Of a stretch of DNA of 64,000 bases, positions 38,471 through 45,968 are shown piece by piece. This DNA comes from Oscillospiraceae bacterium (GTDB lineage: Bacteria > Bacillota_A > Clostridia > Oscillospirales > Ruminococcaceae). Position 1 is the first letter of the stretch, and every line of letters begins with the position of its first letter. The stretch lies in the NCBI GenBank assembly GCA_017523995.1, contig JAFWUX010000108.1:1-64000 (forward strand). Direction: 5' to 3'. The notes under the pieces are model-generated. The model saw only the letters and a list, made by a program, of their open reading frames with translations, did no database searches and was not told where the DNA came from. The translations under genes and the position numbers were made by a program.

Positions 38471-38956
38471 TTACGTTTCATTTCTGTCGGCGCCGGTCAT
38501 TTCATCCGGACACGCGACGTAGAGATCAATGTCGATCTCGGTGCCGGTCTCCATGCAGAATCGCATGATTGCCGGCGACGGCGCGAGCATCGGTGTCGGC
38601 TCATCGTAGCGCACAAGAGGCACAACGATCAGCCAGAGCTTCGCGTCATAGGTCAGCTTGATTTTGCGCAGCAGATCGGCTTTCGTCAGCAGCGGGTCGA
38701 TCGTCTGCATCATCTGGTTGGCGGTGTCGAGCCGGTGACTTTTCACCGTGCCGAAGCGCCAGCTTGCAAAGTCATACGGCACGCCGTTGCTGCGGACATC
38801 CCCGATGCGCTGCACGCTCTCCGGTGCAAGCCGCAGATATTTCGTGATATCATCCGGATCAAAATTGCCCGTGATCCGGAAATAGGTCATGCACTGTGTC
38901 CGTTCCGCGTGATAGTACACGCGCTGCAACTCCATACCCTCCGGTAATTCAGCCAT
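38471..38956 (-). CDS. DUF4279 domain protein
   Basis: 161 residues; the N-terminal part TYFRITGNFDPDDITKYLRL and the following RIGD … ASWRFGT match the pattern of DUF4279 proteins, small soluble proteins of unknown function sometimes near toxin-antitoxin or immunity genes. The C-terminal half (LWLIVVPLVRYDE) completes an alpha-beta fold. The start overlaps the end of the GTPase-NYN gene by eight bases, which implies coupled translation. Confidence 0.78.
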   Translation of the reverse strand: MAELPEGMELQRVYYHAERTQCMTYFRITGNFDPDDITKYLRLAPESVQRIGDVRSNGVPYDFASWRFGTVKSHRLDTANQMMQTIDPLLTKADLLRKIKLTYDAKLWLIVVPLVRYDEPTPMLAPSPAIMRFCMETGTEIDIDLYVACPDEMTGADRNET

Positions 38957-41528
38957 CTGCCTGCCCTCCGATCAGTGCGCGGATCTCCTGCTCAGCGGCA
39001 CGGAGCTCCGCTTCAAATTCACGCGCCGAGATGCGCATAGCGCCGTTGCCCAGAATAATCAGCTGTTCCAGTGCATCCGAGGTCGCCACGCGGACACGGT
39101 TCTTCTTGATGAGCTGCTTCGAGACCCGCTCGATATAGGAATCGGCGGTCTCCGCTTCTTTTGTATACACAACACTGACACCGCCGTGCTGCTCGATCTC
39201 GGTGCCGTGCCCCTTGATTTTGTATGCATCAAACACGAGGATCACCTCGCATTTCCGGAATCCCTGATAATTCTGCAGCAGATTCAGCAGACGGTCGCGC
39301 GCATGCTCTAAGCTGTCCTTCGCGAGCGATTTCAGCGAATCCCATGCAAAGATGATGTTGTAGCCGTCCACGAGCAGATATTCCTTCTCCGGCGGCGCGG
39401 GCACCCTGATATTGCCCTCTGTCAGCTCGGCGGTCCTGTTGCGGCGCATCGTTTTCGGCTTGTCGCGGTTGATTTTGCCGTAGGTGCGCTCATAGATCGC
39501 CATGAGCTCCTCATCGCTCGCATCCGGCAGATCACTGACGCGCGGGGTATATTCCGGCTGCATCTCCTCCTCGGGGAAGTCATAGCGATGCGGCAGAACC
39601 GCGGGCAGATGCATACAGAGCGGCACCTCCGCCCAGTTGACGAGATAGCCTGCGCCGTGCGAGCAAAACACCGAATCTGCGCTGTTTTCGAGGTCGCTGT
39701 CTGCATCGTAGCCGATCAGCGCGATCACTTCCTCGGGATTATGACATCGCCGGTATCCGGAGACATTCAGCGAGAGCGCCCCCCTGCCCTTTGTATAGCT
39801 GAGCACCTCCGCCGTGTAATCATTGAGCGTTGCGACCGGTGCGCTTCCGGTGAGGACAGCCGTCTCGCCGAGAATCTCCGGCGGATCGAACTGCCCTGCG
39901 CGCTGCTGCAGATCGGTCATCGCACGACCGACGCATTCCGACGGCAGCTCGAGCGTGAAATCATAGTAGGGCTCGAGCAGGATGCTCTCTGCGGAGCGAA
40001 GTCCCTGCCGGACAGCGCGGTAGGTCGCCTGCCGGAAGTCGCCGCCCTCCGTGTGTTTCAGATGCGCCCTGCCGCTGACCAGCGTGATCTTCATATCGGT
40101 GATCGGGCTGCCGGTCAGCACGCCGATATGTGTTTTTTCAAGCAGATGCGTCAGTATCAAACGCTGCCAGTTGCGGTCGAGCACATCCTCCGAGCAGCGC
40201 GTGCCGCATTGCAGACCGCTCCCCTCCGGCAGCGGCTCCATCAGCAGATGCACCTCCGCATAGTGGCGCAGCGGCTCATAATGCCCCACGCCCTCGACCG
40301 CCTCCGCAATCGTTTCGCGATAGGTCACGGCGCCGCTGTCAAAGGTGACGTCATAGCCGAAGCGCGCCGCAATCTGATTGGTCAGCACCTCAAGCTGCAC
40401 CGCGCCCATGAGCTGCACGAAAATCGTGCGCGTGCGCGCATCCCACTCGACATGCAGCTGCGGATCCTCCGCCTCAAGCGTCTGGAAATACTGCATCGCC
40501 TCCTGCGGCTGGATTGCCTCCGGCAGCAGCACGCGGTAGCGCATGACCGGTGTCAGCATCGCCTCGCGCGTATCTTCGCAGCAGCCGAGCCCGCAGCCCG
40601 CATACGCCGCAGAAAGCCCCGTCACCGCGCAGACAGCGCCCGGCTCCGCCTCATCCCCCGGCACATACTTCGCGCCGGAATAAAAGCGGATGCCTGTGAC
40701 TTTTTCGGTATATTCATTGTGATCCGCGCCGGTATAGCGGATCTCATCGCGGTTGTGCAGTGTGCCGCCGCGAATCTTGAGATAGGTCAGGCGGTTGCCT
40801 TTTGCATCCGCGGAAATCTTGAACACATGCGCACCGAATTCCGGCGTCCGCGCGGGTTCCTGCGTGTAGCCCGTCAGGATGTCCAGCAGTGACTCGACGC
40901 CTTTCAGGTCGCGCGCCGCGCCGAAGCACACCGGAAACATCTGCCGCGCCGCGATCGCATCACGCAGCATCTCCTGCGGCAGTGTATCCGTCTCAAAATA
41001 GACGTTCATCAGGTCTTCGGTGCAGGCAGCGGCATGCTCGCAGATGGTCTCATAGTCCGTATCAAACTGCACGCAGCTCTGCGACAGTCTGCCCTGTAAT
41101 TCCTGCAACAGCGCGGTTTCCGTGCGGTCAGAGAGATCCATTTTGTTGACGAACAGGATCACCGGCACGCCGTACTGCTCCAGCAGGCGCCAGAGTGTCC
41201 GCGTGTGGCTCTGCACGCCGTCCGTGCCGCTGATGACAAGGACTGCGTAATCGAGCACCTGCATGGTGCGCTCGGTCTCCGCAGAAAAATCAACGTGACC
41301 GGGCGTATCAAGCAGCGTGAACACGGTCTCGCCGAGCGTAAGCGACGCCTGATGCGCAAACACCGTGATGCCGCGGCTGCGCTCGATGTCATTTGTATCG
41401 AGCCACGAATCGCCGTGATCGACTCTGCCGCGCTTTTTGATCTCGCCGGTACGGAACAGCAGCGCTTCGGCAAGCGTTGTCTTTCCGGCATCGACATGCG
41501 CCATGATGCCGACGGTCAGTTGTTTCAT
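38949..41528 (-). CDS. TetM/EF-G-like GTPase fused to a NYN (Rae1/YacP-like) nuclease domain
   Basis: An 859-residue fusion. Residues 1-~650 are an EF-G-like GTPase of the ribosomal-protection (TetM/OtrA) type: AHVDAGKT (10-17), RGIT switch I (52-55), DTPGH (74-78), NKMD (128-131), then EF-G domains II-V. Residues ~714-859 are a NYN/PIN-like nuclease domain with conserved acids in LLVDGYNII, LVFDAYKIKG, ETADSYIERV and ATSDALEQL, as in YacP/Rae1, which cuts mRNA in the ribosomal A site in Bacillus. The joining linker (~655-713) is acidic then basic. I use ATG 41528 behind AGAGGTGA; the in-frame GTG at 41537 overlaps that site. The architecture predicts a GTPase that brings a nuclease to the ribosome. 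Activity is inferred; tetracycline resistance is not shown. Confidence 0.88.
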   Translation of the reverse strand: MKQLTVGIMAHVDAGKTTLAEALLFRTGEIKKRGRVDHGDSWLDTNDIERSRGITVFAHQASLTLGETVFTLLDTPGHVDFSAETERTMQVLDYAVLVISGTDGVQSHTRTLWRLLEQYGVPVILFVNKMDLSDRTETALLQELQGRLSQSCVQFDTDYETICEHAAACTEDLMNVYFETDTLPQEMLRDAIAARQMFPVCFGAARDLKGVESLLDILTGYTQEPARTPEFGAHVFKISADAKGNRLTYLKIRGGTLHNRDEIRYTGADHNEYTEKVTGIRFYSGAKYVPGDEAEPGAVCAVTGLSAAYAGCGLGCCEDTREAMLTPVMRYRVLLPEAIQPQEAMQYFQTLEAEDPQLHVEWDARTRTIFVQLMGAVQLEVLTNQIAARFGYDVTFDSGAVTYRETIAEAVEGVGHYEPLRHYAEVHLLMEPLPEGSGLQCGTRCSEDVLDRNWQRLILTHLLEKTHIGVLTGSPITDMKITLVSGRAHLKHTEGGDFRQATYRAVRQGLRSAESILLEPYYDFTLELPSECVGRAMTDLQQRAGQFDPPEILGETAVLTGSAPVATLNDYTAEVLSYTKGRGALSLNVSGYRRCHNPEEVIALIGYDADSDLENSADSVFCSHGAGYLVNWAEVPLCMHLPAVLPHRYDFPEEEMQPEYTPRVSDLPDASDEELMAIYERTYGKINRDKPKTMRRNRTAELTEGNIRVPAPPEKEYLLVDGYNIIFAWDSLKSLAKDSLEHARDRLLNLLQNYQGFRKCEVILVFDAYKIKGHGTEIEQHGGVSVVYTKEAETADSYIERVSKQLIKKNRVRVATSDALEQLIILGNGAMRISAREFEAELRAAEQEIRALIGGQADG

Positions 41529-43870: not shown

Positions 43871-43954
43871 TGCTGCTGACCGGACTTGAACCGGTACGGT
43901 GTATCCACCGAGAGATTTTAAGTCTCTTGCGTCTGCCGATTTCGCCACAGCAGC
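43871..43954 (-). tRNA. tRNA-Leu (UAA anticodon)
   Basis: 84-nt class II tRNA. Acceptor arms GCTGCTG and CAGCAGC with discriminator A; anticodon arm AGAGACTTAAAATCTCT with anticodon TAA; long variable arm CGGTGGATACACCG; T arm CCGGTTCAAGTCCGG. The 3' CCA is not encoded (ATCC follows), so it depends on the CCA enzyme. It has its own consensus promoter. Confidence 0.96.
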
Positions 43955-44720: not shown

Positions 44721-45890
44721 TTATGCATCCCACGGTGCGGGCGAATCGGGATCGAGCACACCCGGCACCTTGAGGTCATAGCCGTTGACCTCGATCAGTG
44801 CGTCATCGAGCTCGATGACCATGCAGTGGCGCCCGTTGATCTTATCGAGCCGCACCTTGTCTTTCGCCTGATTCTTGACGTTGACAACAATCTCCGGCGT
44901 CTTGATGACGGTTTTCGGCGAGATCAGACGCTCGGGCTTGAGCGAAGTCTCGACATGCTCCTCAAAGACCTTTTCGGTATCGACGAGCTTCTCCTCCGGC
45001 ACACCTGCCTCCGCGAGCATGCGGTGCAGAATGCGTCCGGTGACTTCTGTCGGGGAATCGTCGGTCTTGTTTTTCGCGACGATCTCCGTCAGCTTCTCGT
45101 TGACGGCGGTGACCGTCTCATAGGTCAGATCATCGCCGAGCAGCGTGCCGAGCACCTCTTTCATGTCCGCCTGATCCTCCTCGACGGTCGCCTCAACATC
45201 GCACTCAAGGAACGCATCTATGAGCTTTTCGTTCGGTGTATTCGGCGTTTTGGTGTAATAGAGGACATGGTGGACATCGGTCGCACGATCCGTGAACACC
45301 GGATAGAAGAAACCGTCCGCCGGCGCCTTGCTGATCACGGCATTCGGATTTTCCTGCCGCAGAATCTCATCGTCAAACTGATTGTAAACGAGCACACCCT
45401 CGGTTTTCGCGATCGGGCAGAGTGCCGCAACGATGTAACGGAACACCTGATCGGTAAAATCGGTCTCAAGCTCGTCCATCTTGTTTTTGCGCGGCGGATT
45501 GTACTGGCAGTATGCAAGCAGCACGGCATAGGGCGCATCGGAATCAATCTGCTCTGCCATCGAGCCGAGAAACGCAAGGGCAACATCCTCCTGCTTCAGC
45601 TCGGACTGCAGCAGATTGGCAAGGCGCGTCTGTGCGCCGTCCTCGCCGTAGGCATGGTTGCGGAACGGCAGCTCGGAGCTCTGCTTGCCGAGGTTGACGT
45701 TCAGCACCTTTTTCATCGTATCATAGAGGATCTGGCTTTCCGGCGACGGAATACTCGCTGCATTGCGGATATTGACGCCGCGGACATTGCGCTGGCTGTC
45801 CACGAATGCCGTCAGCACGCGGTCCATCGTGAAATATTTTGCTTCCGGATTAAAGTGGTTCCGGATCTCATTGAGTTCTTTACGGTTCAT
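44721..45890 (-). CDS. DUF4317 family protein
   Basis: 389 residues, cytoplasmic, no membrane segment. MNRKELNEIRNHFNPE at the start, VLLAYCQYNPPRKN in the middle and the region with ILHRMLAEAGV are typical of DUF4317, a family widespread in Clostridia with unknown function. The start at 45890 follows CAGGAGAC; the frame opens 24 codons earlier. It is followed closely by the DIP1984-family gene. The C-terminal 70 residues (IVVNVKNQAKDKVRLDKI; HCMVIELDDALIEVNG) form a separate beta-rich part. Confidence 0.85.
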   Translation of the reverse strand: MNRKELNEIRNHFNPEAKYFTMDRVLTAFVDSQRNVRGVNIRNAASIPSPESQILYDTMKKVLNVNLGKQSSELPFRNHAYGEDGAQTRLANLLQSELKQEDVALAFLGSMAEQIDSDAPYAVLLAYCQYNPPRKNKMDELETDFTDQVFRYIVAALCPIAKTEGVLVYNQFDDEILRQENPNAVISKAPADGFFYPVFTDRATDVHHVLYYTKTPNTPNEKLIDAFLECDVEATVEEDQADMKEVLGTLLGDDLTYETVTAVNEKLTEIVAKNKTDDSPTEVTGRILHRMLAEAGVPEEKLVDTEKVFEEHVETSLKPERLISPKTVIKTPEIVVNVKNQAKDKVRLDKINGRHCMVIELDDALIEVNGYDLKVPGVLDPDSPAPWDA

Positions 45891-45968
45891 CGGAATTGTC
45901 TCCTGTTCTCTGTGTTCGGGTTGATAAGCAAAAGGCAGCCGCCGGAGCAAGACCGGCGGCATATGCCA

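Follow-up and report, generated by a model that had tools for sequence, protein, structure and literature searches.

Rae1 (YacP) of Bacillus subtilis is a free-standing nuclease to which two reports (PMC12320835, PMC6613710) attribute the cutting of mRNA in the A site of the ribosome; the latter mentions a hypothesis that stalling increases access of Rae1 to that site. According to Atkinson 2015 (PMC4342817), a YacP-like NYN domain was acquired by Tet proteins of ten Clostridiales species, and an RNase-based resistance is suggested. Here we analysed a stretch of 64,000 nucleotides from an Oscillospiraceae bacterium (contig JAFWUX010000108.1, positions 1 to 64,000; hereafter the window), in which one gene on the minus strand (38949..41528) has this same architecture, an EF-G/Tet-type GTPase followed by an NYN domain. 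The fusion has therefore been known as an architecture since 2015, and it is conserved and real. In that report, as far as its accessible part goes, the fusions of the ten species are treated as Tet proteins, whereas here the GTPase is without the features that define Tet and the fusion stands in for free Rae1 in one third of the sampled Clostridia. The replacement of Rae1, the lack of the Tet tip and the loss of a tail in the window protein come from the present analysis, and were not met in the literature found.

The coordinates given in the original prediction were correct and the strand is minus. From an ATG at 41528, just 5' of which lies GAGGTG, resembling a ribosome-binding site, a single frame without internal stop encodes 859 residues plus the stop codon. 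This is no frameshift or assembly accident, because each of the 80 loci kept (the best 80 of 595 candidate stretches confirmed in the genome scan) shows the same one-frame fusion and 47 member sequences fall into one 99%-identical cluster of the fusion protein; a possible frameshift separating two proteins, raised with the original prediction, is thereby answered. At one locus (L051) the first 28 residues are missing at a contig edge. A protein search returned at least 7,989 relatives, and NYN_YacP was recognised by eye in 119 of the 120 matches listed, the sole one without it being P0046 with 598 residues. The fusions diverge widely, at 51-75% identity to the window protein (alignment A2). 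All six Pfam domains of the protein exceed their own gathering scores, and the E-values exclude domain matches by chance.

The distribution of the two forms was followed in 391 genomes of the class to which Ruminococcus flavefaciens belongs (Clostridia, NCBI taxonomy), in which each NYN_YacP match was classed as fused or free by the open frame around it. Matches above cut-off were present in 248 of these genomes, and by frame they comprised 130 fusions, 108 free proteins (<250 residues), 10 partial or broken frames (295-646 residues) and one frame of 342 residues. A GTPase match accompanied the NYN domain in 127 of the 130 fusions, in a frame of at least 750 residues; the other three (G149, G244 and G402) also have a GTPase match, in a frame outside the listing, the NYN domain is truncated in G093, and the frame is interrupted in G233. 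One candidate, G236, taken as a second genome with a free NYN gene beside the GTPase gene, was rejected: its NYN sequence lies less than 140 bases from the end of contig C44 (length 28,600), and the gene was probably split by assembly. With this correction the free proteins number 107.

Only one sampled genome (G342) holds both forms, another (G145) has two fusions, and three have a second NYN_YacP match under the cut-off. The mutual exclusion of fused and free forms is pronounced (Fisher test, p ~2e-21; the members of a clade are not independent observations). Among 12 genomes chosen for their fusion, none has another NYN_YacP gene, save one with an equal-scoring match in a 360-residue frame. 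We read this as each genome having one Rae1, in one of two forms, and in many clostridia a Rae1-type nuclease seems usually to take the fused form.

That the C-terminal domain is a relative of Rae1/YacP, as originally predicted, was borne out by family match, fold and residues. The NYN domain (residues 718-851; 38976..39377, minus strand) matches Pfam NYN_YacP (PF05991) with 171.6 bits against a gathering score of 24.6, and its predicted PIN/NYN fold superposes on B. subtilis Rae1 (PDB 5mq8, 5mq9), with 43% identity in the structural alignment. All four acids align, D721, D767, D796 and D818 of the fusion with D7, D53, D81 and D104 of Rae1; the first three are present in 81/81 fusions and D818 in 80/81. 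We take these four residues, as the original prediction did, to be the catalytic acids.

The two proteins differ in that the window domain is fused to a GTPase, and also at the C terminus. The window NYN domain stops near residue 145-146 of Rae1 in the structural alignment, so that the tail region of Rae1 holding R166 is absent, and it is ~25 residues shorter than the 17 free clostridial NYN proteins measured (17 of 25 rows were kept, 8 being dropped by a motif filter). In the accessible text of PMC6613710, the substitution R166P in this tail is reported as a suppressor and read as loss of function; the treatment of the tail as a defining feature of Rae1/YacP is our own. A short NYN C terminus is found in 55/81 fusions and a long one in 26/81, and longer C termini occur also in five others of another type (L090, L104, L106, L109 and L110). 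Loss of the tail would fit with ribosome access being provided by the GTPase, which is suggestive only.

The N-terminal half has the five-domain layout of EF-G in Pfam, PDB and fold searches. The G domain (residues 4-223; 40860..41519, minus strand like all features of the gene) matches GTP_EFTU with an E-value of 3.2e-50, and its motifs were seen to be intact, as had been claimed for the P-loop (AHVDAGKTT), DTPGH and NKMD; switch I reads RGIT(V/I)F. Domains II and III (residues 231-396; 40341..40838) are barely above cut-off, EF-G_D2 (231-307) with 28.5 bits and EFG_III (346-396) with 27.7 bits at a gathering score of 27, while domain IV (residues 400-513; 39990..40331; EFG_IV, E 1.1e-17) and domain V (residues 517-597; 39738..39980; EFG_C, E 4.4e-19) match clearly. 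A C-terminal extension with the motif S-V-F-C-S-H-G-A-G, delimited by alignment (residues 598-640; 39609..39737), follows. It is linked to the NYN domain by a tether (residues 641-715; 39384..39608) predicted to be mainly low-confidence coil with one helix (672-683). Between the extension's tryptophan and the DGYN motif lie 78-124 residues in 81 fusions and 88 residues in the window protein (W632 to D721). The fold search with the full-length model covered residues 1-619, the NYN domain being modelled separately, and the relative placement of GTPase and NYN domain in the full-length model is not settled (pTM 0.62).

The original prediction had called this half a ribosomal-protection GTPase of TetM type; its likeness to EF-G held, and the assignment to TetM did not. 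The best full-length PDB matches are indeed TetM and TetO, with EF-G close behind (240 vs 233 bits). Among NCBIfam models (best 25 of 42 families considered), however, the window protein misses the tet_protect cut-off (403.8 vs 775), stays below the cut-off of each of the Tet(M)/(W), Tet(Q), Otr(A) and Tet(M) models, and also misses that of EF-G (TIGR00484, 279.4 vs 659.4). A further difference lies in the tip loop of domain IV (residues 486-500; 40029..40073). In TetM, Pro509 of this loop sits in the tetracycline site, according to the accessible text of PMC8161019; the corresponding column holds Lys (K491) in 83/83 fusion rows (81 plus L112 and the split gene L111) and in 16/16 rows of relatives with the GTPase only, against Pro in 4/5 Tet rows. 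The tip histidine of EF-G, H489 here, is His in all 83 fusion, all 16 GTPase-only and both EF-G rows and in 1/5 Tet rows. The fusion tip reads H-x-K-H-T-(E/D)-G-G-D-F-R, unlike YYSPVSTPADF in TetM/TetO and with KHT in place of the DVDS of EF-G. The S-V-F-C-S-H-G-A-G extension, which has a related form in the GTPase-only relatives, is absent from the compared Tet-like and EF-G rows; together with the NYN domain it is extra relative to TetM/TetO, and such C-terminal additions also set the fusion apart from EF-G. A third kind of tip, D-H-V-M-H-S-N-P-G-D-F, unlike both the TetM and the fusion type, occurs in a Tet-like GTPase with a 648-residue frame (L129, genome G159). The best explanation is that the GTPase half belongs to a separate subfamily of EF-G family translational GTPases, and judged from its sequence it is not a TetM-type protection protein. 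Since the tip is without the drug-site proline of TetM and the Tet cut-offs are missed, the predicted delivery to drug-bound ribosomes is unsupported.

A search across Clostridia had been proposed, and it found the fusion to be widespread and separate GTPase and NYN genes to occur in relatives. The same GTPase subfamily without NYN is present in 21 sampled genomes (frames of 645-700 residues, 776-881 bits), 14 of which have a free NYN gene elsewhere. Left out of this count were G180 (match in two pieces, frame 729), G159 (the different Tet-like type), G353 (NYN downstream in another frame) and G063, G143 and G340 (matches ending at position 551-565 of 652). The GTPase-only clostridial relatives placed in alignment (L113-L128, frames of ~650-730 residues) share the tip loop of the fusion, have a C-terminal extension of related form, and differ from the fusion in being without the nuclease domain. 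In the trees, made by FastTree only, fusions and GTPase-only proteins are sister groups on the GTPase side (support 0.742 and 0.914; joint clade 0.999), the support of 0.742 for one fusion clade being modest. In the NYN tree, which is based on 145 columns, one branch (0.999) divides 86 fused from 25 free domains with the single exception of L103. This is the free NYN domain of genome G255, where a GTPase-only gene is present as well; it groups with fused domains (0.999) and is possibly a fusion that later split again. The trees fit a single fusion event and a possible later split, although 145 columns are few.

Domain IV of EF-G-type factors reaches the ribosomal A site. The original prediction, that an EF-G-like factor and Rae1 use the same site, stands in this respect, but they would not act there together: because domain IV and Rae1 would share the A site, a sequential hand-off is favoured. 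The N-terminal 640 residues would bind ribosomes with a blocked or slow A site, where the tip of domain IV may probe or clear the decoding site. By analogy with EF-G and TetM, the GTPase would withdraw after GTP hydrolysis, and the tethered nuclease would then enter the freed A site and cut the mRNA, as B. subtilis Rae1 is described to do. The fusion most likely does the job of Rae1, since it is the sole Rae1 in nearly all sampled genomes that have it. We therefore favour a housekeeping ribosome-associated factor in which the GTPase gives access to the ribosome and hands off to the tethered nuclease, a reading to which we would give slightly less than an even chance. In a stronger form, held yet more tentatively, this would be a GTP-driven, mRNA-cutting translation factor whose EF-G-like GTPase checks the A site of stalled ribosomes, vacates it and passes the mRNA to its own tethered Rae1, so that a single protein would lead all the way into ribosome rescue and mRNA decay and would have replaced free Rae1 in a large share of Clostridia.

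Several observations weigh against the favoured reading. The exclusive occurrence of the two forms partly reflects clades rather than independent events, and the 26/81 fusions with a long NYN C terminus mean that tail loss is not general. No NYN_YacP match was found in 7 of the 21 GTPase-only genomes (G346, G219, G090, G041, G074, G195 and G046); barring incomplete assemblies, the GTPase there has a role that does not depend on the nuclease. The GTPase half and the NYN domain could not fill the A site together, so the hand-off is conjectural. Moreover, gene neighbourhoods at the 80 loci give no pointer to ribosome rescue, and a literature search, with most subscription papers and the original Rae1 papers outside its reach, found no experimental study of the fusion.

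The strongest rival is that the chain carries two independent activities, the GTPase having a separate translation role and merely keeping Rae1 near ribosomes, with cleavage not being driven by GTP hydrolysis. In its favour, each half also occurs as a separate gene, the tether is long and flexible, and the subfamily may have its own role in the seven genomes named above. However, the fusion is kept across 51-75% identity and hardly ever has a second NYN_YacP gene beside it in the genome. This suggests that joining the two halves is of importance, and we regard this rival as rather unlikely.

The gene neighbourhood bears on a further alternative, a nuclease for rRNA or tRNA maturation that the GTPase takes to ribosomal particles; a proposal of this kind for the NYN domain is cited in the accessible part of Atkinson 2015. 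The minus-strand order is an SDR enzyme, an HD-domain protein, the fusion, a DUF4279 protein, RNase Z, a 111-residue protein for which no family was found, and CCA transferase, and the tight gene spacing around the fusion suggests an operon. A tRNA-Leu (TAA) gene (43871-43954, minus strand) lies upstream of this operon-like run. The original prediction had argued from the shared operon with RNase Z and CCA transferase, but this pair recurs beside the fusion in only 1/80 loci, that of the nearest relative (L001; 36 of the 80 loci have both 6-kb flanks). The window neighbourhood is therefore not evidence of function. As Rae1 is moreover described, in the text available of PMC12320835 and PMC6613710, as acting on A-site mRNA, a maturation nuclease is improbable.

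Less probable still is antibiotic resistance, by a Tet-type protection protein using RNase activity against tetracycline. This has been suggested in print (Atkinson 2015, in its accessible part), databases label several listed members as TetM/TetW/TetO/TetS family, and TetM and TetO lead the PDB matches. Against it stand the lysine at the Pro509 column, the missed tet_protect cut-off, the replacement of a housekeeping nuclease and a spread unlike that of a resistance gene: 23/72,556 plasmid records match the NYN domain, with two fusion-type names among the 15 listed. The fusion-type plasmid inspected, Agathobacter rectalis NZ_CP143948.1 (L140), has 252 kb and is typed non-mobilizable. In the window (44721-45899) and on this plasmid alike, a DUF4317 gene is found close to the fusion, on the plasmid with a BrnT/CopG pair between; among the 80 loci DUF4317 was matched only at L018, and its nearness to the fusion may be chance. 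The NYN domain is also matched by twelve Clostridioides difficile records classed as plasmids; the one inspected, NZ_CP149721.1 (L141), holds cysS, thyX, rlmB, an NYN gene, sigH, tuf, secE and nusG and has the look of a chromosomal fragment deposited as a plasmid. Among phage records 12/50,697 match, none covering >80% of the query.

Toxin and abortive-infection systems include ribosome-targeted RNases, but a defence or toxin module cutting RNA on ribosomes in phage attack is very improbable here, given that 0/5027 PADLOC models match the fusion protein at E 0.001, that no defence or mobile family was above cut-off among the ten neighbours scanned (the window RNase Z gene having a match to Apyc1 under the cut-off), and that the fusion is present in a third of sampled Clostridia, almost mutually exclusive with free Rae1.

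These results suggest that the label 'tetracycline resistance ribosomal protection protein' on database entries of this family is wrong, a point of consequence when resistomes are counted. The evidence on distribution is strong, and with the fusion replacing free Rae1 in a third of the Clostridia sampled, the route by which Rae1 enters the A site becomes a question that can be tested with one protein. The fusion offers a direct way to study how nucleases of the A site come to ribosomes.
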